From NCBI RefSeq assembly GCF_000971155.1, contig NZ_BBLX01000002.1, positions 248,001 to 312,000 on the forward strand: a DNA stretch of 64,000 nucleotides, in the 5' to 3' direction. Every line of letters starts with the position of its first letter. Position 1 is the first letter of the stretch. The notes beneath the pieces were generated by a model. That model saw nothing but the letters and a program-made list of their open reading frames with translations, had not been told where the DNA came from and searched no databases. A program made the translations under genes and the position numbers. The DNA is from Demequina maris (lineage in GTDB: Bacteria; Actinomycetota; Actinomycetes; Actinomycetales; Demequinaceae). Below are positions 301 through 63,625 of the stretch, in pieces.

Positions 301-326
301 CGTGCGTCCGGGGACGATGCGTGGGC

Positions 327-518
327 TCAGTCCTCGTCGTCGGGCTTGCGGAGCCGGAACGGTTCGACATGATCGGGCAGCGGGATCACCACGTGGGCCA
401 GCGCATCGTCCCGCGGCGGCGCCTCGGCGACCACCTCGGTCGCGGGCCGGACCTTGTCCCAGTCCTTCTGCTCGCGCGTGTGTGCGGCACCCTGGTTGAA
501 CAGCTCCTCGAAGGTCAT
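327..518 (-). CDS. Small conserved-looking acidic protein, function unknown
   Basis: The 63-residue product begins MTFEELFNQG and ends RKPDDED. The start at 518 is preferred because the in-frame extension to 566 would run through the 14-bp intergenic hairpin at 534-573. It is divergent from ychF, so the two probably share the 519-611 promoter region. Composition is charged, with no membrane segment and no cysteine. One copy of the dispersed 10-mer lies in frame (PPRDDALAH). I do not recognise the family. Confidence 0.6.
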   Translation of the reverse strand: MTFEELFNQGAAHTREQKDWDKVRPATEVVAEAPPRDDALAHVVIPLPDHVEPFRLRKPDDED

Positions 519-533
519 CCCGTCAGCGTAGGA

Positions 534-573
534 CGGGACGATGCGCGTGTCACCGTGCTCGCGCATCGTCCCG
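534..573. repeat. Inverted pair of the 10-mer forming a 14-bp perfect hairpin
   Basis: CGGGACGATGCGCG (534-547) is the exact reverse complement of CGCGCATCGTCCCG (560-573), with a 12-nt loop. It lies between the divergent starts at 518 and 612, just upstream of the ychF -10 box. It could be a cruciform or protein-binding site; its position between divergent genes argues against a terminator. Confidence 0.85.
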
Positions 574-597
574 GCAGGCGGTGGGGCCTCCCGCCGG

Positions 598-603
598 TAG
601 AAT
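598..603 (+). promoter_or_regulatory. -10 box of ychF (leaderless arrangement)
   Basis: TAGAAT ends 8 nt before the GTG start at 612, so transcription should begin at or next to the start codon. No clear -35 is seen; the hairpin at 534-573 lies just upstream. Confidence 0.6.
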
Positions 604-611
604 GGTCGCCC

Positions 612-1697
612 GTGGCACTCACCATCGGAATCGTCGGACTCCCGAACGTCGGCAAGTCGACCCTGTTCAACGCCCTCACCCGCGCCGAGGTGCTCGCCGC
701 GAACTACCCGTTCGCGACCATCGAGCCCAACGTCGGCGTGGTCCCGCTGCCGGACGAGCGTCTCGGCAGGCTCGCCGAGGTCTTCGGCTCGGAGCGCGAG
801 GTCCCCGCGACGGTGTCCTTCGTGGACATCGCGGGCATCGTCAAGGGCGCATCCGAGGGCGAGGGCCTGGGCAACGCGTTCCTCGCGAACATCCGCGAGG
901 CGGACGCGATCTGCCAGGTCACCCGCGCGTTCGAGGACCCGGACGTGATCCACGTCGACGGCAAGGTCGACGCCGCCTCCGACATCGAGACCATCACCAC
1001 CGAGCTGATCCTCGCGGACCTGCAGACCGTCGAGAAGGTCATCCCGCGCCTCGAGAAGGAGGTGCGCGCCAAGAAGGCGCCCGCCTCGCAGCTCGCGGCC
1101 GTGCAGGCCGCGAAGGAGATCCTCGAGGCCGGCCAGACGCTCAGCTTGGGCGCGCCGGTCGCGGGGCTCGACCTCGACGACATCCGTGAGCTCAACCTGC
1201 TCACCACCAAGCCCTTCATCTACGTCTTCAACCTGGACGATGCGGGCCTCGCCGACGAGGATCTGCGCGCCCAGCTCGAGGCGAGCGTCGCGCCGGCGAA
1301 GGCGATCTTCATGGACGCGAAGTTCGAGTCCGAGCTGGTCGACCTGTCCGAGGAGGAGGCCCGCGAGATGCTCGAGGCCAACGGCCAGGAGGAGTCCGGC
1401 CTGGACCAGCTCGCGCGCATCGGCTTCGACACGCTCGGCCTGCAGACGTACCTCACGGCCGGCCCCAAGGAGGCCCGCGCGTGGACCATCCACAAGGGTT
1501 GGACCGCCCCGCAGGCCGCCGGTGTCATCCACACCGACTTCGAGCGCGGCTTCATCAAGGCCGAGGTGGTCCACTTCCACGACCTCATCGACGCCGGGTC
1601 GATGGCGTCCGCGAAGGCGGCGGGCAAGGTCCGCATGGAGGGCAAGGACTACGTCATGCAGGACGGCGACGTGGTCGAGTTCAGGTTCAATGTGTAG
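612..1697 (+). CDS. ychF: Redox-regulated ATPase YchF (Obg family)
   Basis: The 361-residue product matches the usual family length. The P-loop GLPNVGKSTLFNALT starts near residue 8. The switch/G3 region reads DIAGIVKGASEGEGLGN, and the N-terminal half is typical of Obg-type ATPases. The C-terminal TGS-like domain ends EFRFNV. YchF binds ATP better than GTP and is tied to ribosomes and oxidative stress. The start is GTG 612, placed just after a TAGAAT box. The last 24 nt (AGG, AAT and a TAG stop) differ from host style. A second, host-like copy of the same 3' end lies about 1 kb downstream at 2661-2684, so the reading frame appears to have been restored by an inserted element. Confidence 0.95.
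   Translation: MALTIGIVGLPNVGKSTLFNALTRAEVLAANYPFATIEPNVGVVPLPDERLGRLAEVFGSEREVPATVSFVDIAGIVKGASEGEGLGNAFLANIREADAICQVTRAFEDPDVIHVDGKVDAASDIETITTELILADLQTVEKVIPRLEKEVRAKKAPASQLAAVQAAKEILEAGQTLSLGAPVAGLDLDDIRELNLLTTKPFIYVFNLDDAGLADEDLRAQLEASVAPAKAIFMDAKFESELVDLSEEEAREMLEANGQEESGLDQLARIGFDTLGLQTYLTAGPKEARAWTIHKGWTAPQAAGVIHTDFERGFIKAEVVHFHDLIDAGSMASAKAAGKVRMEGKDYVMQDGDVVEFRFNV
1674..1697 (+). repeat. Left attachment-like repeat (element-borne ychF end)
   Basis: It encodes VEFRFNV and a TAG stop and shares the core GTCGAGTTC with the right copy. Mismatches follow at third positions and in the stop codon. Confidence 0.65.
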
Positions 1698-1919
1698 TTC
1701 CGGTTCAGCCTTTGGCAATCGTCCTGCACGAACCTAGAGGTCGGCGCTGTGGTCTCAACCGGATTGGGGGGGATGACGCGCGCTCTGCATAGCCGTCAAC
1801 GCACGAGCGGCGTCCACTGTCGCGCCGCCGATCGACAAGTACCCGCCGTCCGTGATTGCTAGGCGGGAGTGCGGCGACGCCTTCCGGCAATGCCACCCGC
1901 CCATCAGTACGGTGACGAT

Positions 1920-2655: not shown

Positions 2656-2660
2656 ACGCG

Positions 2661-4200: not shown

Positions 4201-4685
4201 CCGCCACGCTCGTCCGCCGCGCGACCGTGGACGATGCGCCCGCCATCGCGCGCGTCCACCTGCAGTCGTGGCGCGAGACCTACCCGCCGGTGCTGCCGGC
4301 CGAGGTCCTCGACGGCCTCGACCTCGACGCGCGCACCGCGCGCTGGCAGGAGATCCTCGACGAGGGACGGTCGACCGTGCACGTCGCGGTCGCCGGGGGA
4401 GAGGTCGTCGGCTTCGCGAGCGCGGGCGACGGCCGCCAGGACGACGCGCCCGCCCCGCGCGAGCTGGAGGGGCTGTACGTTCTCGCCCGCCGGCACGGCA
4501 CCGGGGACGGCGCGAGGCTCCTCGCAGCCGCGCTCGGCGACCGCCCCGCGTACCTGTGGGTGTGGCGCGACAACGCCCGTGCCCTCGCCTTCTACGGCAA
4601 GCACGGCTTCGATGCCGACGGCGCCGAGGACACGCACACGGTGAACGAGCATCCGATCCCGGCCGTGAGGATGGTGCGGCCGTGA
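4197..4685 (+). CDS. GNAT-family N-acetyltransferase
   Basis: The 162-residue product has a typical GNAT pattern: an N-terminal strand with VRRATVDDAPAIARVHLQSW, a central strand ELEGLYVLARRHGTGDGARLL that supplies the acetyl-CoA pyrophosphate loop (R-x-x-G-x-G/A), and the C-terminal signature LWVWRDNARALAFYGKHGF. It should transfer acetyl from acetyl-CoA to an amine; the substrate is unknown. It overlaps the upstream gene by 4 nt (ATGA). Confidence 0.85.
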   Translation: MTATLVRRATVDDAPAIARVHLQSWRETYPPVLPAEVLDGLDLDARTARWQEILDEGRSTVHVAVAGGEVVGFASAGDGRQDDAPAPRELEGLYVLARRHGTGDGARLLAAALGDRPAYLWVWRDNARALAFYGKHGFDADGAEDTHTVNEHPIPAVRMVRP

Positions 4686-4707: not shown

Positions 4708-5439
4708 GTGACCGACCGGTCGACCAGCTTCGGACGAGCCGCCGCCGACTACGCGCGCGGCCGCCCCGGCTATCCGGACGATGCGGTGGCGTGGATGCTC
4801 GAGGGCGTCCAGGGGCGCGTCCTCGACCTGGGCGCCGGCACCGGCAAGCTCACCGCGGCGGTGCTCCACGCGCGACACGACGTCGTCGCCGTCGACCCCG
4901 ACCCCGTCATGCTCGCGACCCTCGAGGCGCACGTGCCGCGCGCGACCGTGATGCGCGGCCGCGCCGAGGAGATCCCGCTTCCCGACGCGAGCGTGGGCGC
5001 CGTCGTGCTCGGCCAGGCGTGGCACTGGGTCGACGTCGAGGCGGCCAGCGCGGAGGTCGCCCGGGTCCTGGCACCCGGGGGTGTCCTCGGCCTCATCTGG
5101 AACATCCGCGACGAGCGCGACCCCTGGGTCGCGGCGCTGAGCCGGGTGATCGGGCACTCGACGGCGGAGCTCCTCCTCGCGGGCGGCGGCCCGCGCGTCG
5201 CGGCGCCGTTCGGCCCGCTCGAGTTCTACGAGAGCGCGTGGAGCCGCCCCTTCACCGCATCGTCCCTGCACGCGCTCGTGCGCTCGCGCAGCAACTACAT
5301 CACGGGCCCCGACGCGCTCAAGAAGGACATCGACACCGCGCTCGACGCGCTCATCGCCCGCACGGCCGGACTTGCCGACGGCGGCGAGGCGACGATGCCC
5401 TACGTCACGCACGCCTTCAGGGCGCGGGTCGCGGGCTGA
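4708..5439 (+). CDS. Class I SAM-dependent methyltransferase
   Basis: The 243-residue product has the SAM-binding motif I VLDLGAGTGKLTAAVL near residue 35, followed by an acidic motif II (VVAVDPD). Later motifs are VVLGQAWHWVD and RVLAPGGVLGLIWN, the pattern of UbiE/Mtase_11-type small-molecule methyltransferases. GTG 4708 lies 6 nt after TAGCGT (4696-4701). The substrate is unknown. The end overlaps the convergent gene by 23 nt. Confidence 0.85.
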   Translation: MTDRSTSFGRAAADYARGRPGYPDDAVAWMLEGVQGRVLDLGAGTGKLTAAVLHARHDVVAVDPDPVMLATLEAHVPRATVMRGRAEEIPLPDASVGAVVLGQAWHWVDVEAASAEVARVLAPGGVLGLIWNIRDERDPWVAALSRVIGHSTAELLLAGGGPRVAAPFGPLEFYESAWSRPFTASSLHALVRSRSNYITGPDALKKDIDTALDALIARTAGLADGGEATMPYVTHAFRARVAG

Positions 5440-5851
5440 CGCCCCCGTCGGACGATGCGCGGGCCCGCTGCCCGTCGCTCGTCCGGCCGACCAGCGCGAC
5501 CAGCAGCGCCACGGTCAGCGGGATCACGAAGATCCCCACGCTCATCATCGCGAGGAAGTCCGCGGCGGCGAGCAGCCCGAACAACGTCCAGGCCGTCGGC
5601 AGCCCCCACCGACGGTCCGCGGCCATCGCGACCCCGACGAGCAGCGCGAGCGCGAGCGGCACCGCCACCGTGAGGACGCCGGAGATTCCCTCGGCCTGCG
5701 CGAGGGTGAGGTGGCGCTCGGTCTCCACGCCGTCGGAGCCGAGGCTCACCTCGGTGCCGACCGGCACCACCAGTGCGAGCACGGGCAGCAGCACGCCCCA
5801 GCCCACGGCGACCCACCAGGCGATCCGCGTCCGCGCGCTCCAGCGCTCCAT
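5417..5851 (-). CDS. Small integral membrane protein, function unknown
   Basis: The 144-residue product has about four hydrophobic segments (near residues 10-30, 55-75, 85-100 and 102-122) and a polar proline-rich tail that contains one copy of the dispersed 10-mer (ASS frame). ATG 5851 is preceded by AGGGGGTG. I recognise no family. Confidence 0.65.
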   Translation of the reverse strand: MERWSARTRIAWWVAVGWGVLLPVLALVVPVGTEVSLGSDGVETERHLTLAQAEGISGVLTVAVPLALALLVGVAMAADRRWGLPTAWTLFGLLAAADFLAMMSVGIFVIPLTVALLVALVGRTSDGQRARASSDGGVSPRPAP

Positions 5852-6900: not shown

Positions 6901-7434
6901 TCAGTCCTCGGACTGGCGCGCCCGGAAGGCCGCCTGGGCGGCCCGGTTGGTGCACGTGACCGTGCAGTACTTGCGCGAGCGGTTGCGGCTGAGGTCGAGC
7001 ACCACGCCCTCGCAGTCCTCCATGGCGCAGCGCGAGAAGCGCTGCATCTCGTCGTCGCGCACCACGTCGGTCATGGCCATCGCGGTCTCGACCAGGATGC
7101 GCGCGTCGAGCGGGTGGTCGTCCGACGTCGCGTGGATGTGCCAGTCGGTGTCGCCGTGGCGCACGAGCTGGGGGACCGCGTGCTGCTCGGCGAGGATCGC
7201 GTTGATCTGGGGGACCGCATCGTCCCTGCTCGACAGGAACAGCCGGCGCAGCGGCGTGCGGATCGCGCGCACGGCCTCGAGGTCGCGCGCCTCGGGGCGC
7301 CGGCCGGTATAGCCGAAGCGGTCGAAGAAGTCGACGAGCTCGTCGAACGTGGTGAGCGTGTCGGGCTCGAGCTCGGAGTTGGACAGGAAGACGGCCGACT
7401 CGAGCGCCGCGACGGTGTCATTGGCGAACGTCAT
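6901..7434 (-). CDS. CGNR zinc-finger / ABATE-domain transcriptional regulator
   Basis: The 177-residue product has an N-terminal ABATE-like helical domain (residues 1-125) and a C-terminal zinc-binding CGNR-type domain. In the latter, four cysteines lie in CAMEDCEGVVLDL and KYCTVTCTNRAAQAAFRAR (CTNR here in place of CGNR). Such proteins are stress-related DNA-binding regulators. It is divergent from the EamA exporter with only 39 nt between starts, so it probably controls that gene and itself. Confidence 0.85.
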   Translation of the reverse strand: MTFANDTVAALESAVFLSNSELEPDTLTTFDELVDFFDRFGYTGRRPEARDLEAVRAIRTPLRRLFLSSRDDAVPQINAILAEQHAVPQLVRHGDTDWHIHATSDDHPLDARILVETAMAMTDVVRDDEMQRFSRCAMEDCEGVVLDLSRNRSRKYCTVTCTNRAAQAAFRARQSED

Positions 7435-8649: not shown

Positions 8650-10500
8650 CTACAGCCCGTCGATGTCGGCGCGCATCCGGGCCAGACCCTCGCGGATCGG
8701 CTCCGGCACCTTGTCGCCGTACGAGTCGAGGAACGCCTGCGCGTCGTCCGCCTCCGCGGCGAGCGCCTGCTTGTCGAGGCCGAACAGCTCAGCCCACGTC
8801 GCATCGTCCACGCCCGCGGCGGCGTGGTCGATCTCGCCCTCCGCGGGGATGAGGCCGAACGGGCTCTCCGTGCCCTCGGCGCGGCCCTCGATGCGGTCGA
8901 GCATCCAGGCCAGCGCGTGGATGTTCTCGCCGAAGCCCGGCCACAGGAAGCGGCCGTCGGCGCCCTTGCGGAACCAGTTCACCTGGAACACCGCCGGCGC
9001 GCCGCCCGCGGCGTCGGCCTTCGCGCCCACCTCGAGCCAGTGGCTCCAGTGGTCGGCCATGTGGACGCCGCAGAACGGCAGCATCGCGAACGGGTCGCGG
9101 CGCAGCTCGCCGACCGTGCCCTCCGCCGCGGCGGTGCGCTCGGACGCGAGCGTCGCGCCCATGAGCATGCCGTGCTCCCAGTCGCGGGCCTGTGCGACCA
9201 GCGGCACGTTGGTCGCGCGGCGGCCGCCGAAGATCACGGCGTCGACCACCACGCCGGCCGGGTCGTCCCAGTCGTCCGAGATCGTCGGGCACTGGGCGGC
9301 CGCGACCGTGAAGCGCGAGTTCGGGTGGGCGGCCGGGGTGGACGATGCGGGGGTCCAGTCCTGGCCGAGCCAGTCCGTGAGGTGCTCAGGCGCCTCGTCG
9401 GTCATGCCCTCCCACCACACGTCGCCGTCGTCGGTGCGCGCGACGTTCGTGAAGACTACGTCGTGCGTGAGCGTGTCCATCGCGACCGGGTTGGTGCCGC
9501 GGCCCGTGCCGGGCGCGACGCCGAAGAAGCCGGCCTCGGGGTTGATGGCGCGCAGGCGGCCGTCGGGGCCCGGTGCCAGCCACGCGATGTCGTCGCCGAG
9601 CGTCTCGACGGTCCAGCCCGGGATGGTGGGCTGCAGCATCGCGAAGTTCGTCTTGCCGCACGCGCTCGGGAAGGCAGCGGCGACGTGGAAGACGCGGCCG
9701 CGCGGGTTGGTGACCTTGAGCAGCAGCATGTGCGCCGCGAGCCAGCCCTCGTCCTGACCGATCGCGCTCGCGATGCGCAGCGCGAACGCCTTCTTGGCGA
9801 GGATCGCGTTGCCGCCGTAGGCCGAGCCGTACGACCACACCTCGCGGGTCTCGGGGAAGTGCGAGATGTACTTGGTCTTGTTGCACGGCCACGCGACGTC
9901 CTCCTGGCCGGGCGCGAGCGGGGCGCCGACCGTGTGGGCGCAGCGCACCCACTCGGTGTCGGGGCCGATCTGCGCGAGCGCGTCGGCGCCCATGCGGGTC
10001 ATCGTGCCCATGCTCACCACGACGTAGGGGGAGTCCGTGACCTGCACGCCGTAGCGGGTGAGGGGGCCGCCCACGGGGCCCATCGCGAACGGCATCACGT
10101 ACATCGTGCGGCCGCGCATCGCGCCGCGGAACAGGCCGTGCAGCGTCTCGCGCATCGCGGCCGGCGGGACCCAGTGGTTCGTGGGACCGGCGTCCTCCTC
10201 CTTGACGGAGCAGATGAAGGTGCGGGACTCGACGCGGGCGACGTCGTCCGGGTCGCTGCGCGCGAGGTAGCTGCCGGGCCGCAGCTCGGGGTCCAGCGCC
10301 TCGAGCGTGCCCGCGTCGACCATCTGGCGGATCAGCCGGGCGCGCTCGGGCGCCGAACCGTCGCACCACACGACCTCGTCGGGCGTCGCGTGAAGAGCGA
10401 GGCGCTCGACCCACGCGACGATGCTCGGGTCGGCCCCCTGCGGGTGGCCCGCTCCGGACGAGGTGCGCGTGTCGCGCAGCGGCTGCTCGATGATCGCCAT
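8650..10500 (-). CDS. pckG: Phosphoenolpyruvate carboxykinase (GTP)
   Basis: The 616-residue product has the full length of GTP-dependent PEPCK. The kinase-1a loop [14 protein letters not shown] carries the reactive cysteine of the GTP class. Further motifs are [13 protein letters not shown] and the PEP-binding region around RDWEHG. It interconverts oxaloacetate plus GTP with PEP, CO2 and GDP at the entry to gluconeogenesis. ATG 10500 follows AAGGGAG. It is divergent from a RamB-like regulator of acetate and carboxylate metabolism, a sensible pairing. Confidence 0.96.
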
Positions 10501-12066: not shown

Positions 12067-12123
12067 GCGGCCGGTCCAGGAGGGACGATGCGCGCTCCGC
12101 GCGTGCGCGAGGCGACCCTCCCG

Positions 12124-14465: not shown

Positions 14466-16462
14466 GCGACCCGCGCGACGAGCGGCCCGAGGAGCAGGAC
14501 GAACTCGACGAGGCTCAGGCGGAGATCGACGCGGACCTCGACGGGGACGAGGCGGACGACGCCACCGCGCAGGTGCCCGCCTTCCTGGCGGAGCCGCCGG
14601 CCGAGCCCGAGCCGGAGCCCGACGCCGAGGCGACCGCGGTGCTGCCGCCGGTCGTCGACGAGCCGGCGGACGATGCGGCGGACGGCGCGGACGCGGAGGC
14701 GACCGCCGTGATGGCGCCGGTCCCCGCGGCGGAGCCCTTGCCAGAGCCCGCGCCGGAGGAGCAGCCCGCGACCGACGAGGTCGCCGAGACGAAGGAGCCT
14801 CGCCGCGTGCACTGGGGACGTTGGGCGTTCGTGTTCATCCTCATCGCGCTCGTCGGCGGCTACTTCGCCGCCGCGGTGTACGCCTCGGGACGCATCCCGG
14901 CCGGCACCGCCGTCGAGGGCGTCGACATCGGGGGCATGACGCGCGACGAGGCGGTCGCCGCGCTGCAGCCGACGGTCAAGGAGCTCAACACCACCCCGGT
15001 GGCGATCACCACCGACGACGCCGAGGCCACGATCGTCCCCAAGGAGTCCGGCATGGCCGCCGGCGCCGGCGCGACGGTCGACCAGCTGCTGCGCTTCAGC
15101 CTCGCGCCCTTCGACATCCTCCGCTCCTTCACCGGTGCCGAGCGCGAGGCCGAGCTCGTCACCGTCGTCGACCAGGACACGCTCGCCGAGGCGATCGACG
15201 GCACCCGCGACGACCTCGAGGTCGACGGCCAGGACGCCGCGGTCGAGATCACCGGCACCGGCGCGAGCCCCGTGGCCGCGGTCGACGGCGTCGCGCTCGA
15301 TGCCGAGGCGACCGCCGAGGGCCTCGGCGAGGTGTGGCCGGTCGACACCTACCCCGCCGTGGTCGAGTCCAAGCCCGCCGCGATCACCACCGACGACGCG
15401 GACGCCTTCGTCACCGAGCTCAACTCGGAGATCCTCGCGGGCGACGTGCTCATGACCGGCGAGAACGGCGACGCCACGGTCACCTCCGACCAGCTCACCC
15501 GCTTCGGCTCCGTCGAGGACGTCGACGGCGAGCTCGTGTTCCTGATCGACGGGCGGTCGCTCGCCGCGGAGCTCGAGTCCGCGGACCCGGGCCTCGTGAG
15601 CGCCCCGACGTCCGCATCGTTCCGCTTCACCAGCAGCCACCAGCTCAAGACCTCGGCCTCGAAGCCGGGGCGCGCGATCGCCCCGAAGCGGCTCGGCCCG
15701 GCGGTGGCCGCCGCCGCCCAGAGCCCCGAGCGCGAGGGCGAGCTGCCGTACAAGAACACCCAGGCCGCCGTCACGAGCGACGACCTCGGCGTCAAGGACC
15801 TCAAGAAGGTCGTCGCGTCCTTCGACACCCCGCTCACCCCCGAGCCCGTCCGCACGCAGAACCTCGTGCGCGGCGCCGAGAAGGTCACCGGTGTCGTCGT
15901 GAAGCCCGACGAGACGTTCTCGCTGCTCGACGCGCTCGCCCCCATCACCGAGGCGGGCGGCTACCAGGCGGCCCACATCATCGTCGACGGGTACCTCACC
16001 AACGGCATCGGCGGCGGCCTGTCGCAGATGGCGACCACGGTCTACAACGCGGCGTACTTCGCGGGCCTCGAGGACGTCGAGCACCGCCCCCACACGAAGT
16101 GGTTCGACCGGTACCCGGCGGGCCGCGAGGCCACGATCTTCGTCGGCTCGCTCGACCTGCGCTTCAAGAACAACACCCCGTACACGCTCGTGATGAGCTC
16201 GTACGTGACCGGGGGCCGCCTCCACGTCGACATCTGGTCCACGCCGTACTACACGGTCAAGACCTACGCGTCGGACAAGACGAACTTCGTCCAGCCCAAG
16301 TCGGTCGAGTCCGACCGCTCGACCTGCCTCGATACCCCCATGGGCAACCCGGGCTTCACCATCACGAACCGCCGCGAGGTGTACCTCAAGGGCGACCTCG
16401 TCGACGAGTCCTCGTACACCTGGACGTACCAGCCCGACAACGGCGTCACCTGCACCAAGTAG
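14462..16462 (+). CDS. VanW-domain cell-wall protein with PG-binding repeats
   Basis: The 666-residue product has an acidic, Pro/Glu/Ala-rich cytoplasmic N terminus (about 115 residues) and one transmembrane segment near 118-143. Next come two putative peptidoglycan-binding (PG_binding_4-like) domains, about 150-260 and 300-390. A VanW domain follows near 465-610 (VVVKPDETFSLLDAL ... GGGLSQMATTVYNAA). The end is exposed outside the cell. VanW proteins occur with glycopeptide-resistance and cell-wall genes, but the reaction is not established. Start GTG 14462. Confidence 0.88.
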   Translation: MSDPRDERPEEQDELDEAQAEIDADLDGDEADDATAQVPAFLAEPPAEPEPEPDAEATAVLPPVVDEPADDAADGADAEATAVMAPVPAAEPLPEPAPEEQPATDEVAETKEPRRVHWGRWAFVFILIALVGGYFAAAVYASGRIPAGTAVEGVDIGGMTRDEAVAALQPTVKELNTTPVAITTDDAEATIVPKESGMAAGAGATVDQLLRFSLAPFDILRSFTGAEREAELVTVVDQDTLAEAIDGTRDDLEVDGQDAAVEITGTGASPVAAVDGVALDAEATAEGLGEVWPVDTYPAVVESKPAAITTDDADAFVTELNSEILAGDVLMTGENGDATVTSDQLTRFGSVEDVDGELVFLIDGRSLAAELESADPGLVSAPTSASFRFTSSHQLKTSASKPGRAIAPKRLGPAVAAAAQSPEREGELPYKNTQAAVTSDDLGVKDLKKVVASFDTPLTPEPVRTQNLVRGAEKVTGVVVKPDETFSLLDALAPITEAGGYQAAHIIVDGYLTNGIGGGLSQMATTVYNAAYFAGLEDVEHRPHTKWFDRYPAGREATIFVGSLDLRFKNNTPYTLVMSSYVTGGRLHVDIWSTPYYTVKTYASDKTNFVQPKSVESDRSTCLDTPMGNPGFTITNRREVYLKGDLVDESSYTWTYQPDNGVTCTK

Positions 16463-16484
16463 CGGGGACGATGCGCCGGTAGCG

Positions 16485-43612: not shown

Positions 43613-43927
43613 TCAGTGCGCGAGCTTGAGGCCCACGACGCAGCCGACGATGCCGAGGATGAGGACGATGCGCAGCAGGCTCGCGCTCTCGGCGCCCGTG
43701 AACATCGCGTAGCCGACCGTCAGCGCGGCGCCGATGCCGACCCACACCGCGTACGCCGTGCCGACCGGGAGGCCGCGCATGGCGTACGCGAGACCGGCCA
43801 TGCTCGCGGCCAGTGCGACCGCGAACACGGTGGTCGGCAGGGGACGGGTGAAGCCGTCGCTGCGGCCCAGCGCGGTGGCCCAGACGGCCTCGAGGATCCC
43901 GGACAGGATGAGGATGGCCCATGACAT
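43613..43927 (-). CDS. sugE: SugE/Gdx-type SMR guanidinium exporter
   Basis: The 104-residue product has four transmembrane helices. The first carries the SMR glutamate Glu13 in ILEAVWATALGRSDGFTR, the signature of the SugE/Gdx branch. It should exchange guanidinium for protons. A guanidine-III riboswitch directly upstream strongly supports this. It interrupts the nucleoside genes on the opposite strand. Confidence 0.88.
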   Translation of the reverse strand: MSWAILILSGILEAVWATALGRSDGFTRPLPTTVFAVALAASMAGLAYAMRGLPVGTAYAVWVGIGAALTVGYAMFTGAESASLLRIVLILGIVGCVVGLKLAH

Positions 43928-44890: not shown

Positions 44891-46597
44891 TTAGATCCCC
44901 AGCGCCACCGTCACATCGGCCCTCAGCAGCTCCATCGTGGTCGCCGCGGCCGCCTTGGCCGCCGCCACGTCGTCGCCCTCGACCGGCACGATGACCTCGA
45001 GGTACGCCTTGACCTTCGGCTCGGTGCCGGACGGCCGCACGATCACGCGCGCGCCGGACTCGGCCGCGAGGTGCAGGCCCGTCGTGCCGGGCAGCCCGCG
45101 GAAGCCCTCCGACATGTCGTCGGTCGCCACCACGGGCGAGCCGGCGAGCGTGGCCGGGGGCGCGGACATGAGCCGCGACATCGTGGCCGGGATCTCCGCG
45201 AGGTCCGCGTACCGCGCCGACACCTGGGACGTGAGGTACACGCCGTACGCGCGGGCGAGGTCGTCGATCGCGTCGGCCAGCGTCCGCCCGCCGGCCTTGA
45301 GCTCGGACACGAAGTCCGCCATGAGCAGCGCCGCGGAGACGCCGTCCTTGTCGCGCACCAGGTCGGGCGCGACGCAGTAGCCCAGCGCCTCCTCGTAGCC
45401 GAAGACCATGCGCGGCGTGCGCCCGATCCACTTGAAGCCGGTCAGGGTGTTCGCGTGCCCGAGCCCGTGCGCCTCCGCGATCGCGCCCAGTTGCTGCGAG
45501 GACACGATCGAGTTGGCCAGCACGTGCGCGCCCGCGGGCGTCGACGAGGCGATGCGCTCGCCCAGCAGCGAGCCCACGACGTCGCCGTGGAGCATGGTCC
45601 AGGACCCGTCGATCACGGTGGCGACCGCGCAGCGGTCCGCGTCGGGGTCGTTCGCGATGACCACGTCGGCGCCCACCGAGGTCGCGAGGGCGAGGGCGAG
45701 GTCGATCGCGCCCTTCTCCTCCGGGTTGGGGAAGTCGACGGTGGGGAAGTCCGGGTCGGGCTCGGCCTGCTCCGCGACGGTGTGGACGTCGGTGAAGCCC
45801 GCGGCGCGCAGCACGCGCTCCACGGTCTCTCCGCCCACGCCGTGCAGCGGGGTGAGGACGATGCGCGTGGCGGCCCGGCGCTCGGCCACCGGGGCGACCT
45901 CGCCGCCGAGCTCCGCGACCTGCGCGACGTAGTCGTCGACCACGCCCTCGCCCAGGACGCGCCAGCCCTCGGTCGCGCGCGGCACCGCGGCGACCGCGGG
46001 GACGGCGGCGATGCGGGACGCGATCGCCGCATCGTACGGCGGCACGATCTGCGCGCCCTGACCCTCGTCCGTGACCACGCGTCCACCCAGGTAGACCTTG
46101 TAGCCGTTGTCCTGGGGCGGGTTGTGCGAGGCCGTCACCATGACGCCCGCGTCGGCGTCGAGCAGGCGCGTCGCGAACGCGAGCACCGGGGTGGGCAGGG
46201 TGCGGGGGAGCAGCAGCGCCTCGTGCCCGGCGGCGGTCATCACCGCGGCCGTGTCGAGCGCGAACGCGTGCGAGCCGTGCCGCGCGTCGTAGCCGATCGC
46301 GACGCGCGCCGGGCCCTCGACGCCCAGCTCCGCGAGCGCGTCGGTGAGGTAGCGCGCCAGGCCCGCGGCCGCCCGGATGACCACCGCGCGGTTCATGCGG
46401 TTCGGGCCCGCGCCGATGCGGCCGCGCAGGCCCGCGGTGCCGAACTCGAGGAAGCCCGCGAAGCGGTCCTCCAGGTCGGCGAGCGCGTCGGCGGAGCCGG
46501 CCACGGCGGCCTCGAGCACGCCGGTGAGCTCCTCGCGGGTGACGTCGTCCGGGTCGTCCTCGATCCAGGCCTCGGCCCGGGCCAGCAGCTCCTCCAT
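44891..46597 (-). CDS. Phospho-sugar mutase (phosphomannomutase/phosphoglucomutase family)
   Basis: The 568-residue product is an alpha-D-phosphohexomutase: substrate loop FGTAGLRGRIG, the phosphoserine in VTASHNPPQDNGYK, the metal loop NDPDADRCAV, and C-terminal phosphate loop RPSGTEPK. The length matches PmmB-type enzymes. In this context it may act as phosphopentomutase, linking phosphorylase products to deoC (inference). ATG 46597 overlaps the PNP stop. Confidence 0.88.
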   Translation of the reverse strand: MEELLARAEAWIEDDPDDVTREELTGVLEAAVAGSADALADLEDRFAGFLEFGTAGLRGRIGAGPNRMNRAVVIRAAAGLARYLTDALAELGVEGPARVAIGYDARHGSHAFALDTAAVMTAAGHEALLLPRTLPTPVLAFATRLLDADAGVMVTASHNPPQDNGYKVYLGGRVVTDEGQGAQIVPPYDAAIASRIAAVPAVAAVPRATEGWRVLGEGVVDDYVAQVAELGGEVAPVAERRAATRIVLTPLHGVGGETVERVLRAAGFTDVHTVAEQAEPDPDFPTVDFPNPEEKGAIDLALALATSVGADVVIANDPDADRCAVATVIDGSWTMLHGDVVGSLLGERIASSTPAGAHVLANSIVSSQQLGAIAEAHGLGHANTLTGFKWIGRTPRMVFGYEEALGYCVAPDLVRDKDGVSAALLMADFVSELKAGGRTLADAIDDLARAYGVYLTSQVSARYADLAEIPATMSRLMSAPPATLAGSPVVATDDMSEGFRGLPGTTGLHLAAESGARVIVRPSGTEPKVKAYLEVIVPVEGDDVAAAKAAAATTMELLRADVTVALGI

Positions 46598-47450: not shown

Positions 47451-47487
47451 CGCGGACGATGCGCGGGGACCGGCGCATCGTCCCGCG
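47451..47487. repeat. Inverted pair of the 10-mer between punA and the quinone reductase gene
   Basis: GGACGATGCGC (47454-47464) and GCGCATCGTCC (47473-47483) form an 11-bp perfect stem with an 8-nt loop; outer CGC/GCG extends it across a one-base bulge. It ends 6 nt before the TTGAAT box of the next gene. Confidence 0.8.
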
Positions 47488-48896: not shown

Positions 48897-50257
48897 GCGA
48901 ACAGCTCCTGGCCCACGTACGCCCCGTCGGAGCCCAGCACGGATCCGGCGGGCAGGCCCGGCGGGATCGCGAACAGCGCGGAGCCGGTGGTGCGCAGGTA
49001 CTCGATCGTCATGACGTCCGAGCTCGACAGCGCGTTCTGGACCGGCACGAACTGCGTCTCGGGATCGCGCACGTACGCGAGGAAGAACAGACCCGCGTCG
49101 AGGCGACCCAGGTCGTCGGCGCCGTCGGTGAAGTTGTAGCCGCGGCGCATCATCCTGGCGCCGCCGTGCGCGGACGGGTGCGCGAGCGCCACGTGCGACG
49201 TGGGCCGGATCAGCGGCTCGCCGTCGCGGCCCTCGACCGTGAAGTCGGGCTCGGTGAACTCGGTGCCGCCCGACAGCGGGGCGCCGGAGCCCTTGGTCCG
49301 GCCCACGTCCTGCTCCTGCTGCTGCAGCGACGTGCGGTCCCAGATCTCCGCGAGGATGCGGATGCGGCGCGCGACCAGGTACGAGCCGCCGGCCATCCAG
49401 GCCTGCCCGTCCGCCGCATCGGCCCACACCCAGCGGTCGACGAGCTCGGTGTCCTCGGCGCGCAGGTTGGCGGTGCCGTCCTTGAAGCCCATGAAGTTGC
49501 GCGGCGTCTGCTGCGCGCGCGTGGTGGAGGAGGTGCGCCCGAAGCCCAGCTGCGACCACCGGATCGCGGCGTCGCCGAACGCGAGGCGCGAGAGGTTGCG
49601 GATCGCGTGGACCGCGACCTGCGGGTCGTCGGCGCAGGCCTGGATGCACAGGTCGCCGCCGGTGAACCGCTCCTCGAGGGTGTCGCCCGAGAACCTGGGC
49701 AGGTCGATGAGCTGCGCGGGCCGCTTCGACGCCAGCCCGAAGCGGTCGTCGAACAGGCCCGGCCCGAAGCCGAACGTGATGGTGAGGCCGGAGGCGGGCA
49801 GGCCGAGCGCCTCGCCCGTGTCGTCCGGCGGGGCGGCGTACGCGCCGCCCGCGGCGCCCGAGCCGAGCTCCGAGCCGGTCATGAGCCGCGCGGCGGCCTC
49901 GGACCAGCGGCGCAGCAGCGAGATCACGCGCGCCCGGGAGTCGGTGGTGATGTCGAAGGCCGCGAAGTGGAGGCGGTCCTGCTGCGGCGTGACGATGCCG
50001 CTCTGGTGCGCGCCGAAGAAGTCGTAGGCGTTCTGCTGCAGCGGGTCCGCGGTGGCCCGGCCGGCGGCGAAGCCGCCCGCGGTGAGGGCCGCGGCGCCCG
50101 CGACCGCGCCGGCGGTGCCCAGCACGGCGCGTCGCGAGACGCCCGTGCGGGGAGCGTCGGCGGCGACCGCCGCATCGTCCCCGGGGACGGGCGCGGGCGC
50201 GCCCCCGCCCTCCTCGACGGAGGGGGCGGGGGCGGCCTGGTGGTCCTGCTCGGTCAT
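48893..50257 (-). CDS. efeB: Dye-decolourising peroxidase EfeB (Tat-exported)
   Basis: The 454-residue product has a Tat signal (SRRAVLGTAGAVAGAAALTAGGFAAG) after a 40-residue N region, and the heme peroxidase signature MGFKDGTANL with catalytic Asp, plus heme His in the HPSAHGGARMMRRGYNF region. It works with EfeO and EfeU in iron uptake outside the membrane. Last gene of efeUOB. Confidence 0.93.
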   Translation of the reverse strand: MTEQDHQAAPAPSVEEGGGAPAPVPGDDAAVAADAPRTGVSRRAVLGTAGAVAGAAALTAGGFAAGRATADPLQQNAYDFFGAHQSGIVTPQQDRLHFAAFDITTDSRARVISLLRRWSEAAARLMTGSELGSGAAGGAYAAPPDDTGEALGLPASGLTITFGFGPGLFDDRFGLASKRPAQLIDLPRFSGDTLEERFTGGDLCIQACADDPQVAVHAIRNLSRLAFGDAAIRWSQLGFGRTSSTTRAQQTPRNFMGFKDGTANLRAEDTELVDRWVWADAADGQAWMAGGSYLVARRIRILAEIWDRTSLQQQEQDVGRTKGSGAPLSGGTEFTEPDFTVEGRDGEPLIRPTSHVALAHPSAHGGARMMRRGYNFTDGADDLGRLDAGLFFLAYVRDPETQFVPVQNALSSSDVMTIEYLRTTGSALFAIPPGLPAGSVLGSDGAYVGQELFA

Positions 50258-52389: not shown

Positions 52390-52565
52390 GTGCTGACGCG
52401 AGCGTATTGGCTCGTCGCGAGACCTGTCAAATATAGCGAACGACGCTGTTGCGTAATTCGCCGCGGGCGCAGCGAAGCGCCTGGCAGGTGGACGATGCGC
52501 GGGCCGGGCGGGCGGGCCGAAAGGCGGGGTAGCGGCGGCCCTGCCGAGGCGGCCGCCACCGCCGC

Positions 52566-52664: not shown

Positions 52665-54473
52665 TCAGCCCTCGGCGGCCTCGACCGCCACCTCGACCTC
52701 GACGTCCACGATGTCGCAGATGACGGTGCCGGCGGAGACGCCGACGCCCACGCCCGCGGCGAGCGCGCGCACCACTCCCGCGCGGTGCGCGGTGAGCGGC
52801 TGCTCCATCTTCATCGCCTCGAGCACCACCACGAGGTCGCCCTCGGCGACGGTGGCGCCCTCCTCGACGGCGACCTTGACGATCGTGCCCTGCATGGGGG
52901 AGGCGAGCGTCGTGCCGCTGCCGCCGGCGCGCGCGGCGCCGTTGCCGGACCGGCGCATCGGGCGGCGACCCTGCTTGCGCGCGTTGGCGCGGCCCGCCTG
53001 GGCCAGCGACGCGGGCAGGACCACCTCGAGGCGCTTGCCGCCGACCTCGACGACGACGCGCTCGGTGGCCTCGGCCTCCGCATCGTCCGCCGACGGCGTC
53101 GACGGGGCGAGCCCGGCGACGGTCTCCGCGAACTCCGACTCGATCCAGGTCGTGTAGACGGCGAAGCCGTCGATCGCGGTGAACTGCGGCGCGTCGAGCA
53201 CGGCGCGGTGGAACGGCAGGACCGTGGGGATGCCCTCGACGGTCATCTCGGCGAGCGCGCGGCGGGCGCGGGCGAGCGCCTGGTCGCGGGTCGCGCCGGT
53301 GATGATGACCTTGGCGATCATCGAGTCGAAGTTGCCGGACACGGTGTCGCCCTCGGCGACGCCCGCGTCGACGCGCACGCCCGGCCCCGACGGGAAGCGC
53401 AGCGCGGTGAGGCGGCCGGGCGCCGGCATGAAGTTCTGGGCCGGGTCCTCGCCGTTGATGCGGAACTCGATCGAGTGGCCGCGCGTCTCGGGGTGGAGGT
53501 GCGCGATCGAGCCGCCCGCGGCGATGCGGAACTGCTCGAGCACGAGGTCCACGCCGGTGACCTCCTCGGTCACGGGGTGCTCCACCTGGAGGCGGGTGTT
53601 GACCTCGAGGAAGCTGATGGTGCCGTCCGAGCCCACGAGGAACTCGCACGTGCCGGCGCCCTGGTAGCCGGCCTCCTGGAGGATCGCCTCGGAGGCCTCG
53701 ATCAGGCGGGCGTTCTGCACGTCCGTGAGGTACGGCGCGGGGGCCTCCTCGACGAGCTTCTGGTGGCGGCGCTGCAGCGAGCAGTCGCGGGTCGACACGA
53801 CGCGGACGTTGCCGTGCACGTCGGCGAGGCACTGGGTCTCCACGTGGCGCGGCTTGTCGAGGAAGCGCTCCACGAAGCACTCGCCGCGGCCGAAGGCGGC
53901 GACCGCCTCGCGCGTGGCGGAGTCGAACAGCTCGGGGATCTCCTCGAGCGTGCGGGCGACCTTGAGGCCGCGGCCGCCGCCGCCGAACGCCGCCTTGATG
54001 GCGACCGGCAGGCCGTGCTCCTGGGCGAACGCCACGACCTCGTCGGCCGTCTCGACGGGGTCCGGGGTGCCGGGCACGAGCGGGGCGCCGGCGCGCTGCG
54101 CGATGTGGCGCGCGCTGACCTTGTCGCCGAGCCCGTCGATCGCCTCGGGGGAGGGGCCGATCCACGTCAGGCCCGCGTCGATCACCGCGCGGGCGAAGTC
54201 GGAGTTCTCGGCGAGGAAGCCGTAGCCCGGGTGGACCGCCTCGGCGCCCGAGCGGCGCGCGGCGTCGACGATCTTCGCGATGTCGAGGTAGGTCTCGCGG
54301 GCGGTGGAGCCGCCGAGCGCGTACGCCTCGTCGGCGAGGGACACGTGCGGGGCGTCGCGGTCCGGGTCCGCGTACACCGCCACGGATCGCAGGCCCGCGT
54401 CCGCGCAGGCGCGGATGATGCGGACGGCGATCTCGCCGCGGTTGGCGATGAGCACGGAGGAGAAGGCAGTCAC
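52665..54473 (-). CDS. accA: Acyl-CoA carboxylase alpha subunit (biotin carboxylase + BCCP)
   Basis: The 602-residue product has the biotin carboxylase domain ([24 protein letters not shown] loop [34 protein letters not shown]) and a C-terminal biotinyl domain with EAMKMEQPL, the lysine of which BirA modifies. It supplies carboxybiotin for malonyl- or methylmalonyl-CoA synthesis with AccD and AccE at 60-62 kb. GTG 54473 is chosen as the start because family proteins begin there; longer forms to 54584 are unlikely. Confidence 0.92.
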
Positions 54474-54566: not shown

Positions 54567-54638
54567 CTTGTCGGGTATCGACAAGGAAACGCGGGACGAT
54601 GCGCGCCTACGCGGTCGTAGGTTGTATCGCCTCTACAA
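54567..54638. promoter_or_regulatory. Two palindromes upstream of accA
   Basis: CTTGTCG-GGTAT-CGACAAG (54567-54585) and TTGTA-N7-TACAA (54622-54638) flank one 10-mer copy (54594-54603) in a stretch less GC-rich than its surroundings. They lie 94-165 nt upstream of accA and are candidate operators for a fatty-acid regulator. No other gene lies in this 182-nt gap. Confidence 0.45.
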
Positions 54639-54655: not shown

Positions 54656-55297
54656 TCAGCCGCGGAGCTCGTGGAAGGCCACCTCGAGCTCCGCAAGGAG
54701 GCCGCGCAGCAGCGGCAGGCTCACGCCGACCACGCCGTGGTAGTCGCCCTCGATCGCCTCGACGTACGGGCCGCCGAGGCCGTCGACGGTGAACGCGCCG
54801 GCGACGCGCAGCGGCTCGCCGGTGGCCACGTACGCCTCGATCTCCGCGTCGGTGAGCCGCGCGAAGCGCACCACGGTCGAGGACGTGGCGCCGAGCGTGC
54901 CGCCCGTGCCGTCCTCGCGGTCGTCGACGAGCCAGTGGCCCGTGTGCAGGACGCCCGTGCGGCCGCGCATCGTGCGCCAGCGGGCGATCGCGTCGGCGGC
55001 GTCCGCGGGCTTGCCGAGGATCTCGCCGTCGAGCTCGAGCATCGAGTCGCAGCCGAGCACGATCGCCTCGGTGTCGTGGAGCTCGGCCACGGTCACCGCC
55101 TTGGCGCGCGCGAGCACGAGCACCGCATCGTCCGGCTCGAGCGGGCCCCACCCGGCGGCCTCGTGCTCGACGCGCGCGGCCTCGAGCGCGGCGTCCTCGT
55201 CCACGGCGCTGACGATGACGCGCGGCTCCACGCCGGCGGACCGCAGCGTCGAGAGGCGGGCGGGCGACTGCGAGGCGAGGACGAGGGGGACCGGCAT
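54656..55297 (-). CDS. maf: Maf-family nucleotide pyrophosphatase
   Basis: The 213-residue product begins LVLASQSPARLSTLRSAGVEP and has VLGCDSMLELDG and the region YVEAIEGDYHGVVGVSLPL. Maf proteins hydrolyse non-canonical or methylated nucleoside triphosphates. It commonly neighbours carboxylase genes in actinobacteria, as here. Confidence 0.93.
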   Translation of the reverse strand: MPVPLVLASQSPARLSTLRSAGVEPRVIVSAVDEDAALEAARVEHEAAGWGPLEPDDAVLVLARAKAVTVAELHDTEAIVLGCDSMLELDGEILGKPADAADAIARWRTMRGRTGVLHTGHWLVDDREDGTGGTLGATSSTVVRFARLTDAEIEAYVATGEPLRVAGAFTVDGLGGPYVEAIEGDYHGVVGVSLPLLRGLLAELEVAFHELRG

Positions 55298-58872: not shown

Positions 58873-59475
58873 TCAGCGCGGGGCGTCGTGCGGGCGCAGG
58901 GTGTCGCGGCCGATCTCGAGCGCGGCCTTCCACGTCGCCGGCAGCTCCCGCACGTAGCCGATCGCGGTGTGACGGCGCGCGAGCACGGGCGGGTAGGCGC
59001 CCTGGACGTCGAGCCCGACGCTGCGGCACAGCCACATCGCGCGCGGCACGTGGAACTCCTGGGTGCACACGATCACGCTGCCCAGCCCCAGTGTGTCCTT
59101 GGCGTTCCTGGCCGAGGCACGCGTGTCGTGGCCCGAGCCGTCGCGCACCAGCGCCGACTCGGGCACGCCCAGCTCGAGCGCGGTCCGCTCCATCGCCTCG
59201 GTCTCGTCGAGGCCTTCGCGGTTGTGCTCCGCGCCGGTGAGGACCAGCAGCGGCACGAGCCCGCGGTGGTAGAGCGCGGCGCCCGCCTCGACCCGCTGGC
59301 GCAGGAAACGCGACGGCCGGCCGTCGGGCCACACGCGTGCGCCGAGGACCAGGGCCGCGTCGGCGGGACGCAGCGCCGCATCGTCCGCCGGGTGCATGGC
59401 GCCGCGTGCGGAGACGCGGGCGTAGGCCTGCGGCGCGGCGAGGGCCGCGGCGGCCAGGGGGAGCAGCCTCTTCAC
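58873..59475 (-). CDS. YdcF/SanA-like (DUF218) protein, copy 1
   Basis: The 200-residue product has an N-terminal signal-like segment, then ALVLGARVWPDGRPS, LVLTGAEH, and TQEFHVPRAMWLCR, the DUF218 pattern. Such membrane-linked proteins are tied to envelope permeability. It is paralogous to the gene next to it (about the same motifs and order). Confidence 0.8.
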   Translation of the reverse strand: MKRLLPLAAAALAAPQAYARVSARGAMHPADDAALRPADAALVLGARVWPDGRPSRFLRQRVEAGAALYHRGLVPLLVLTGAEHNREGLDETEAMERTALELGVPESALVRDGSGHDTRASARNAKDTLGLGSVIVCTQEFHVPRAMWLCRSVGLDVQGAYPPVLARRHTAIGYVRELPATWKAALEIGRDTLRPHDAPR

Positions 59476-60110: not shown

Positions 60111-60353
60111 TCAGCGCAGCGAGTGGCGCCACGCGGAGCCGCCGCGCGCGAGGGGGAGCGGTCCGCGGTAGCCGCGCAGCGTGCGCGAGCGGTCCATCCA
60201 GGCCGAGCGGGGGCTGCCGGGCTCCTCCGCATCGTCCCCCGCCGCGGAGGCCATGACGGCCGCGGCCGCGACCAGGGCCGCCAGCTCGGCCTCGTCGGGG
60301 GTGCCGCGCACCACCCGCAGGCCGGCGGCGGCGCTGAGCGCATCCTCGGTCAC
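60111..60353 (-). CDS. accE: Acyl-CoA carboxylase epsilon subunit
   Basis: The 80-residue product begins [33 protein letters not shown], typical of AccE, and ends [20 protein letters not shown]. This small subunit links alpha and beta rings in actinobacterial carboxylases. GTG 60353 overlaps the accD stop (GTGA). Confidence 0.85.
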
Positions 60354-61939: not shown

Positions 61940-61967
61940 GGTTCTCCTCGGGGTCAGGACTGCCCGA

Positions 61968-61973
61968 TAGCCT
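61968..61973 (+). promoter_or_regulatory. -10 box of birA (leaderless)
   Basis: TAGCCT, 6 nt before the GTG at 61980, in the 40-nt spacer shared with accD. Confidence 0.5.
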
Positions 61974-61979
61974 AGCCCG

Positions 61980-62828
61980 GTGACCACGCCAGGAGCCGAC
62001 GACGTCGCCCGATCGCGCCGCCCGCTCACCGAGGCCGCGCTCGCGGACCTGGTGCCCGGAACCCTCGCGCGCCTCTTGGTGGTGCCCTCGTCGCCGTCGA
62101 CCAACACGCGCCTGCTGTCAGTCGCGGGAGCGGAACCCGACGCGTGGCCGCACCTGTCGGCCATCGTCGCGGACCACCAGACCGCCGGCCGCGGCCGCGC
62201 GGGACGCGCGTGGGTGACGCCCCAGGGGGCGGCCCTCACCGCATCGTTCCTGCTCCGGCCCCAGCACGTCGCGCGCGAGGACTACGGGTGGGCGCCGCTC
62301 GTCGTGGGACTGGCGACCGTGCGCGCGCTGCGCCGCCTGGGCGTGGGCGCGTGGCTCAAGTGGCCCAACGACGTGGTGGTCGAGGCCGGCGCGCGCGAGA
62401 TCCCCGGCTGGGGGCGGTGGCGCAAGGCGGTCGGCATCCTGTGCGAGACCGTGCCCGGTCAGGACGCGATCGTCGCCGGCATCGGCATCAACGTCTCGCA
62501 GGCCGCGTCCGAGCTGCCGGTGCCGCACGCCGCCTCGCTCGCCTCGCTGGGCGCCACCTCGCTGGACCGCGTGGCGCTGCTGCGGGCGCTCGCGGCCGAG
62601 CTCTCCGGCGCCGTGTCCGTGTGGGACGCCGGCGGGGACCACCCGCGCGCCGCTGTCGAGCAGGTCACCGCGACGCTGGGCTGGGACGTCGCGGTCGACG
62701 TGCCCTCCGGTCCGCCCGTCGCGGGGCGTGCGGTCGCGCTCACCGAGGGCGGCGCGCTCGTGGTGCGCACCGTGAGCGGCGAGGAGAAGGTGCTGCTCGC
62801 CGGCGACGTCCGCGTCCGCCGCGGCTGA
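61980..62828 (+). CDS. birA: Biotin-[acetyl-CoA-carboxylase] ligase
   Basis: The 282-residue product has the biotinyl-AMP loop [27 protein letters not shown], and GIGINVSQ. It lacks an N-terminal DNA-binding domain, so it is the ligase-only type. It biotinylates AccA (EAMKM). It is divergent from accD, its pathway partner. Confidence 0.93.
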
Positions 62829-62830
62829 GC

Positions 62831-62880
62831 CGCCCCGCCCCGCCCCACCCCACCCCACCCCAGTCCGCCCCACCCACCCC
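62831..62880 (-). repeat. C-rich tract with G-quadruplex potential on the minus strand
   Basis: The plus strand has ten C-runs of 3-4 separated by one or two bases (CCCCG and CCCCA units). The minus strand thus holds at least eight GGG/GGGG runs. It lies between the convergent ends of birA and the SRAP gene. Confidence 0.7.
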
Positions 62881-62944
62881 GCAAGTGGTAGATGGTGGTC
62901 GCTTTCGGGAGATCCCTGCGCCTCAGGGGTAGATCAGTGTCGCC

Positions 62945-63625
62945 TCACACCGGCGCCACGAGCTCCTCGCCCTGGTTACGGATGTTCCCGACCGCCCGGT
63001 CCACCTCGTGCCACACGAGCGCGGGCTCGGGGGACGCGATGGCCGCGAAGAGGTCGTCCTTGCTCGAGTCGTGGTCGAGCCATGCGTCGGCCTCGTCCCC
63101 CAGGAGCATGACCGGTTGGCGGTCGTGGATCTCCTGCATGTCCCCGCGCGAGGCGGTGGTCACGATCGAGCACGTCGCCAGCCACGGCGCATCGTCCCCC
63201 AGCGCCTTGTCGCGCCAGAACTCGAACAGGCCCGCGAAGGCGAGGGGCGAGCCGTCCTCGGTGTGGATGAAGTACGGCGTCTTCACGCCCTCGATGGTCT
63301 TCCACTCGAAGTAGCCGGACGCGGGCACGAGGCAGCGGCGCTTGGCGAAGGCGGAGCGGAACGACGGCTTCTCGGCGACGGTCTCGGAGCGCGCGTTGAA
63401 CATGCGCGAGCCGATCGCCGGGTCCTTGGCCCACGACGGCACGAGCCCCCACTTGGCGAGCTCGAGCGAGCGGCCCTCCTCCTTGCGCGCGACCACGATC
63501 GAGGTGTCCTGCATCGGCCCGATGTTGTAGCGCGGGGCGAGCCTCGCATCGTCCGCGATCACGGCGATCTCGAAGGCGTCGACGAGCTCCTGCTCGGTGA
63601 GGAAGTTGGCGTAGCGGCCGCACAT
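62945..63625 (-). CDS. SOS response-associated peptidase (SRAP/HMCES/YedK)
   Basis: The 226-residue product begins MCGRYANF; Cys2 forms the thiazolidine crosslink with abasic sites. Also seen are PRYNIGPMQ, WGLVPSW, FNARSETV, RCLVPASGYFEWK (catalytic Glu), and HDRQPVML. It shields abasic sites in single-stranded DNA. Two 10-mer copies lie in frame (DDA). Confidence 0.93.
   Translation of the reverse strand: MCGRYANFLTEQELVDAFEIAVIADDARLAPRYNIGPMQDTSIVVARKEEGRSLELAKWGLVPSWAKDPAIGSRMFNARSETVAEKPSFRSAFAKRRCLVPASGYFEWKTIEGVKTPYFIHTEDGSPLAFAGLFEFWRDKALGDDAPWLATCSIVTTASRGDMQEIHDRQPVMLLGDEADAWLDHDSSKDDLFAAIASPEPALVWHEVDRAVGNIRNQGEELVAPV

Follow-up and report, generated by a model that had tools for sequence, protein, structure and literature searches.

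Why should one 10-base word, GGACGATGCG, recur on both strands of an actinobacterial chromosome, in genes and between them? The question was raised by a 64,000-nucleotide stretch of Demequina maris (RefSeq assembly GCF_000971155.1, contig NZ_BBLX01000002.1, positions 248,001 to 312,000), hereafter the window, in which a first-pass annotation, made by a model from the letters alone, had seen 34 copies of the word, 17 each way, against roughly 0.3 expected, and had compared them with DNA-uptake sequences, with HIP1 of cyanobacteria, and with Chi-like, methylation or nucleoid-protein sites. Our answer is that the word, whose fuller form is GGACGATGCG-NN-GG, is probably the self-recognition tag of its lineage for natural transformation, i.e., a candidate DNA-uptake sequence.

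A recount found 37 exact copies, 19 on the forward and 18 on the reverse strand, where 100 dinucleotide shuffles gave 0.91 (standard deviation 0.99, maximum 4); the strong excess and the near-equal strands of the annotation stood, its tally and its expectation were both too low, and its assumed GC content of about 72 percent was borne out by a measured 72.3%. Under a third-order Markov model the word and its inner 9-mer were the most over-represented 10-mer and 9-mer of the window (37 versus 0.96), and the copies were dispersed over 28 one-kb bins. According to our own crude gene caller, which left 6.9% of the window intergenic, nine copies lay between genes and one more spanned a gene start, an intergenic bias as had been noticed, at about a quarter of the copies rather than a third. 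Within genes, the sense setting GAC-GAT-GCG accounted for 17 copies; GCA-TCG-TCC, which had been named beside it as a principal frame, proved not to be dominant among the antisense copies, with five against four for CGC-ATC-GTC. The suggestion that the word brings in the otherwise uncommon GAT codon was well founded: 17 of the 63 GAT codons in the window genes, which hold 1,236 GAC codons, are inside copies. Shuffling these genes with codon use preserved, a check that the annotation had itself proposed, left a mean of 2.5 copies and a maximum of 6 over 20 shuffles, compared with the 27 observed.

Nor was the enrichment confined to the window, an outcome that the annotation had allowed for, as the whole 2,966,865-base assembly holds 1,480 copies (751 forward, 729 reverse), about one per 2 kb, and two copies of the reversed word. 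The in-gene count was above all 20 codon-preserving shuffles in 22 of 22 Demequina genomes, chosen out of 40 sampled because their word was clear. The main clade had 183 exact copies in 384 kb versus 10.5 expected, and one-letter variants occurred mostly at about their expected number; the exceptions were chiefly A at position 10 (7.5 times) and A at position 2 (3.7 times). Downstream, G was favoured at positions 13 and 14 from the word start (44-67% and 57-78%) in all seven groups measured of genomes sharing a version, or dialect, of the word; the GG is not an effect of codon phase, since it was also kept at 170 intergenic copies (65% and 67% G). Across dialects the fuller motif reads GGMCGATGC-NNN-GG, with CGAYGC as the shared core. 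A survey of 777 copies in 32 sampled genomes with the A and C forms described below placed 170 (22%) in the intergenic 11.6% of the DNA, and the ratio of intergenic to genic density exceeded one in 18 of 22 genomes. GAC-GAT-GCG or its dialect equivalent was the commonest setting (305 of 777 sites), and five further frame-and-strand settings were occupied. The copies have no long shared flanks beyond the GG, their spacing is close to Poisson, and the strands are near equal within single stretches of 20-64 kb.

A protein of the window has its nearest named relatives in Demequina species, that of D. rhizosphaerae being 97% identical. Counts of GGACGATGCG were bimodal among 37 Demequina genomes (711-1,564 in 12 and 10-235 in 25), and most of the genomes poor in it had many copies of a relative, GGCCGATGC with G, C or T as the usual next base; whole-genome counts of GGCCGATGC went up to 2,018 (reversed control 110). 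For 40 of the 44 genomes, dialects were sought in DNA samples totalling 2.05 Mb; whole-genome counts alone placed G029 and G030 (our handles for genomes) and called G005 and G032 weak. The 44 genomes comprise 16 with GGACGATGCG, the A form, to which G027 was assigned despite an exact count of only 235; 18 with GGCCGATGC[G/C/T], the C forms; two with GYCCGACGC; and eight with a weak word or none. GGCCGATGCG is one dialect other than that of the GGACGATGCG group, and the GYCCGACGC dialect belongs to G009 and G012, in which GYCCGACGCT has 1,050 and 294 copies as against 10-74 in the other 42. Some weak-word genomes keep GGCCGATGC above its reversed control (409 versus 46 in G018, 178 versus 114 in G028), possibly as dialect traces in some of the eight. 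Placed on a tree of ComEC, which covers 30 genomes, the dialect labels required 10 changes versus a shuffled mean of 18.1, and none of 200 shuffles was as low; the A form was not a single clade, two changes being forced, with G004 and G063 apart from the other eight.

The individual sites are conserved as well. Between the window and ten close relatives, 44 of 66 copies in gapless alignments were kept exactly, as were 23-56% of other 10-mers, and across all ordered genome pairs, again in gapless alignments, copies were kept at orthologous sites in 422 of 710 cases (59%) versus 32% for other 10-mers, a comparison given without a p-value because the pairs share history and are not independent; the related-genome test that the annotation had suggested thus came out in favour of the word. 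When A-form species were aligned with ten species of other dialects, C faced the A of position 3 in 136 of 480 site pairs, which represent 70 distinct sites; for the A of position 6 the figure was 45 of 480, and for all A's together 7%.

Beyond the genus, GGNCGATGCG was searched for in 396 genomes of the order, of which 34 were Demequina and one was from another genus of the same family. It had 495-1,914 copies in the A- and CG-form Demequina (2.3-3.4 Mb) and 142-843 in Demequina with other dialects or a weak word, a range overlapping that of other families; none of the 362 genomes outside Demequina had more than 878, a count reached in a genome of 4.2 Mb, and the next had 479. The genome with 878 (G349, family f11) was set aside, with 19 of the core GGCCGATGC in 80 kb versus 8.3 expected and one GGACGATGC versus 3.9, as was the other genus of the family (G192), which has 126 copies versus 14 reversed, yet no core excess in 80 kb. 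Words pooled from Nesterenkonia, Nocardiopsis and Streptomyces loci mostly look like conserved pieces of genes, since the loci are orthologous, and nothing is claimed for them.

The company that the word keeps includes genes for a pilus and for competence. One locus of the window's assembly encodes PilB-, PilT-, PilC- and PilM-like proteins, a prepilin and a prepilin peptidase, i.e., a type IV pilus locus, whose proteins were above Pfam cut-offs, with PilT above its NCBI cut-off and PilB and PilM slightly below theirs; at another locus a ComEA-like protein (SLBB plus HHH) adjoins a ComEC-like protein. The T2SSE ATPase and N_methyl prepilins were found in 44 of 44 Demequina genomes, ComEC in 43 of 44, and an HHH_3 domain of the ComEA type above cut-off in 43 of 44. 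In three genomes ComEC is in two pieces (G009:C1:2039413, G060:C1:296957, G027:C1:423579), one with an internal stop, which could be real loss or sequencing error. For 30 of 44 genomes the best match to one prepilin family was at a place away from the pilus locus; this unlinked prepilin (994-1419 of our stretch L218, with relatives in L220-L233) is conserved and in eight of eight stretches adjoins the same gene, which we take to be methionine synthase. In its PDB matches most of the similarity comes from the N-terminal helix that pilins share, and none of the 22 PDB sequences matched is a chain named ComP.

The copies also alternate in orientation. Neighbouring copies were opposed in 417 of 697 cases (59.8%), compared with 47.6% for control 8-mers, and a null that kept the sense/antisense bias reached at most 393 in 2,000 runs; by genome, the opposed fraction was above half in 26 of 32, below in four and equal in two. 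Opposed neighbours made up 88 of 145 pairs inside one gene, 170 of 293 that spanned genes and 159 of 259 in which intergenic copies were involved, with a peak at distances of 200-2,000 bases (233 of 376). Over ten distance classes up to 2 kb, same-strand pairs were at 0.5-0.9 of expectation in eight and at 1.06 and 1.11 in two short ones; opposed pairs were at 1.1-1.3 in seven, at 0.8 in two and at 1.7 for distances under 50 bases. Close inverted pairs are few, only 45 of the 697 neighbours lying within 100 bases, 30 of them opposed. Strand counts were tighter than binomial both locally, where the mean of (p-q)^2/n was 0.45 over 80 stretches and 1.15 for control 8-mers, and for the exact 9- or 10-mer over whole genomes, where 30 word-rich genomes gave a sum of 8.3 for 30 (lower-tail p 3e-5; of the A-form genomes, G027 and G059, G061 and G063, the last three having no exact count, are outside this set). 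No such tightness was seen in the 24 genomes poor in the word, whose mean was 1.6, or in nine counts made for other words (mean 1.2). It was weaker for the looser GGNCGATGCG (20 genomes, with G065 and other dialects left out, mean 0.60, p 0.085), for which G061 is unbalanced at 635/703.

An unrelated word with similar habits turned up in a second family of the same order (f19). In a 40-kb sample of one of its genomes, G329 (L281, L282), CGGATGCCGCG occupied 17 one-kb bins versus 1.1 expected; the whole genome holds 2,180 copies (1,091 forward, 1,089 reverse) and 22 of the reversed word, and two other genomes of the family hold 620 (G432) and 409 (G406). For CGGATGYCGCG in G329, 19 of 25 neighbours alternate (p 0.015). 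Among 40 f19 genomes of 40 genera, N_methyl prepilins were found in 13 of 14 with at least 100 word copies versus 10 of 26 with fewer (Fisher p 0.0009), and among genomes of at least 2.4 Mb in 13 of 14 versus 9 of 18 (p 0.019); this association is supportive only, because the genera are related and the threshold was set post hoc. As a separate observation, in G258 (family f7; L283, L284) CCACCTCGGCG occurs in 12 one-kb bins of 40 kb versus 0.67 expected, and could be another word of this kind, the third, or else a hairpin element.

The best-supported reading is that the Demequina word would work like an uptake sequence while belonging to neither the Neisseriaceae nor the Pasteurellaceae family of them, because its density, strand balance, intergenic bias, some inverted pairs, dialects, and the pilus and competence genes beside it go together, and because the uptake sequences of those two families are words defined in a similar way, with similar dialects and a similar genomic setting; the analogy drawn by the annotation is supported. 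On this model, a pilin or ComEA would read the word on free DNA, a retracting pilus would pull the DNA through the wall, and ComEA and ComEC would pass one strand inside to recombine. If tagged DNA entered more often, molecular drive would spread through the population any point mutation that creates the word, the word would build up wherever proteins and regulation tolerate copies, and a change in the reader protein would let the sites drift to a new dialect. The alternating orientation suggests to us, by inference only, that entry from the word is one-sided, in which case a near copy in the same orientation would add little and an opposite copy would cover the other flank.

Passages of PMC3630211 describe the Neisseriaceae DNA uptake sequence (DUS) as likewise 10 bases long and present one to a few thousand times, with dialects bound to phylogeny around a shared core, permissive intergenic DNA, some inverted pairs, and a type IV pilus with ComEA/ComEC-type genes. 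Unlike the DUS as described there, the Demequina word has another sequence in another phylum, about one copy per 2 kb, few close inverted pairs and a downstream GG, its role in uptake is a putative one, and no ComP-type receptor was found in Demequina; it is not classed as a DUS because its core is CGAYGC, which lacks a match to the 5'-CTG-3' core of the DUS. The Pasteurellaceae uptake signal sequence (USS) of the Hin and Apl types resembles it, in the passages of PMC1626085, in its short core with conserved downstream bases, its subclade-specific versions, its lack of significant orientation bias and some close opposed pairs; it differs in that the downstream part of the USS consists of AT-rich segments instead of GG, and alternation is unreported there for a USS. 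Closer in phylogeny, Micrococcus luteus, competent by means of Flp/Tad pili, shares an actinobacterial pilus with ComEA and ComEC (PMC6370729, in part), whereas Demequina has the PilB/PilT/PilC/PilM-like type IV pilus locus, and the passages of that paper mention no enriched word. Among the open-licence titles listed on actinobacterial uptake sequences, on the letters of this word, on Demequina transformation and on Agromyces competence, no earlier report was seen.

Several observations weigh against an uptake role. ComEA- and ComEC-type domains also match in the control Corynebacterium glutamicum, and because of this their presence does not prove competence; eight of the 44 Demequina genomes lack a strong word even though they carry the pilus ATPase and prepilins. 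As a ComP-like receptor the unlinked prepilin is doubtful, and it is kept as a weak candidate reader by its position: the 29 sequences examined are acidic, with net charges of -2 to -16, where ComP carries an electropositive stripe (PMC3630211, in part); the prepilin does not track dialects, G006 and G023 sharing the dialect of G000 with a different prepilin; and 14 genomes, several of them word-rich, have no best prepilin match outside the pilus locus. The GYCCGACGC dialect of G009 does not alternate (18 of 34). Uptake sequences show no net orientation bias and somewhat even spacing, close opposed pairs included, and alternating orientation is not described for them in the passages of PMC3630211, PMC1626085, PMC1939737 and PMC7811141; as passages of PMC1939737 have uptake by H. 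influenzae unaffected by tag orientation, alternation is not a known property of uptake tags. In f19, the cut of 100 copies was chosen after the counts were seen, the rank test on genomes of at least 2.4 Mb is weak (p 0.07), and one word-rich draft (G426, 87% complete) is without a prepilin match. No uptake experiment on Demequina was found in the open-licence literature.

Chief among the rivals is an intracellular protein, one that organises the chromosome or is related to replication and requires many non-polar sites, with the word as its binding site and the dialects following changes in it. A protein preferring opposed sites would fit the alternation, and the sharp sequence, the presence across most of the genus and the orthologous conservation would suit it too; near-Poisson spacing, in-gene copies in several frames, a word that differs between clades of one genus, and an unexpected prepilin association in the second family make it unlikely. 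Less probable still, to the point of being improbable, is a word kept by DNA methylation or repair in the manner of HIP1, which is also highly iterated genome-wide, and is reportedly of unsettled function and discussed with two orphan methyltransferases and GATC/CGATCG methylation (PMC4390886). HIP1 is an 8-base palindrome, GCGATCGC, whereas GGACGATGCG is a non-palindromic 10 bases with a downstream GG, and because dialects change internal bases (GAT to GAC in GYCCGACGC), no single methylation site is kept; the methylation and nucleoid-protein options of the annotation are both less likely than the uptake tag. A polar site such as Chi, KOPS (FtsK-orienting polar sequences) or an architecture-imparting sequence would likewise have many copies per genome, and is very hard to credit with strands near equal in stretches of 20-64 kb and at 751/729 genome-wide; this local balance refutes Chi/KOPS polarity, and with it the Chi-like option of the annotation. 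That the word arises from codon use or from a protein motif that recurs, or that it is a mobile repeat or a terminator, can practically be dismissed, since the predominance of GAC-GAT-GCG or its dialect form (305 of 777) is outweighed by the codon-preserving shuffles (2.5 versus 27), which rule out a codon or protein-motif artefact, by the intergenic excess and the five other frame-and-strand settings, and by dispersed copies (28 one-kb bins of the window, just 45 of 697 neighbours within 100 bases) without long shared flanks beyond the GG, which set aside a tandem or mobile repeat.

In the window itself, the exact matches, placed by our gene calls, begin with an intergenic copy at 312..321 (+), and the other intergenic copies are at 12083..12092, 16466..16475, 52490..52499 and 54594..54603 (all +), 27669..27678 and 29791..29800 (both -), and 47454..47463 (+) with 47474..47483 (-), which form an inverted pair. 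A second inverted pair joins an antisense in-gene copy (536..545, +) to the copy across a gene start (562..571, -). Further antisense copies are in the genes for phosphoenolpyruvate (PEP) carboxykinase (9340..9349, +), adenosine deaminase (43342..43351, -) and a phosphomannomutase-family protein (45856..45865, +), and in other genes at 5450..5459, 20445..20454 and 43663..43672 (+) and at 5256..5265 and 27555..27564 (-). The PEP carboxykinase gene holds another copy at 8800..8809 (-), the gene for a succinate dehydrogenase-type flavoprotein one at 31175..31184 (-), and one copy is in a gene in another frame (22074..22083, +). Copies read as GAC-GAT-GCG are at 1235..1244, 4229..4238, 4776..4785, 14668..14677, 34354..34363 and 41697..41706 on the forward strand, and at 402..411, 7216..7225, 50171..50180, 53079..53088, 55124..55133, 59377..59386, 60228..60237, 63188..63197 and 63545..63554 on the reverse. 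Two other repeats were encountered in the genus: a palindrome, TTTCACGTGAAA, which occurs four times within a single stretch of 20 kb of G018 (L141) and which we take to be parS-like and presumably near the replication origin, and TGTGGCGGAGC, repeated 14 times in two clusters of G027 (L151, L153) with many spacings of 21-39 bases.

Passages of PMC1939737, PMC1626085 and PMC3630211 describe sequence-tagged uptake in the Neisseriaceae and Pasteurellaceae. A bolder proposal, and a doubtful one, is that tagged uptake arose at least twice in actinobacteria, with GGMCGATGCNNNGG in Demequina and CGGATGYCGCG in the second family, and that the direction of the tag is read, each copy serving one side and so driving the alternation. 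Were the tag of an actinobacterial genus, with its dialects, and the unrelated candidate of a second family both real, such systems would be seen to evolve repeatedly, also outside those two Gram-negative families; they would offer a new model for the co-evolution of tag and reader, and the reason for tags would become testable across independent cases. The alternating orientation, for its part, is quantitative, and models of how tags evolve would all have to account for it.

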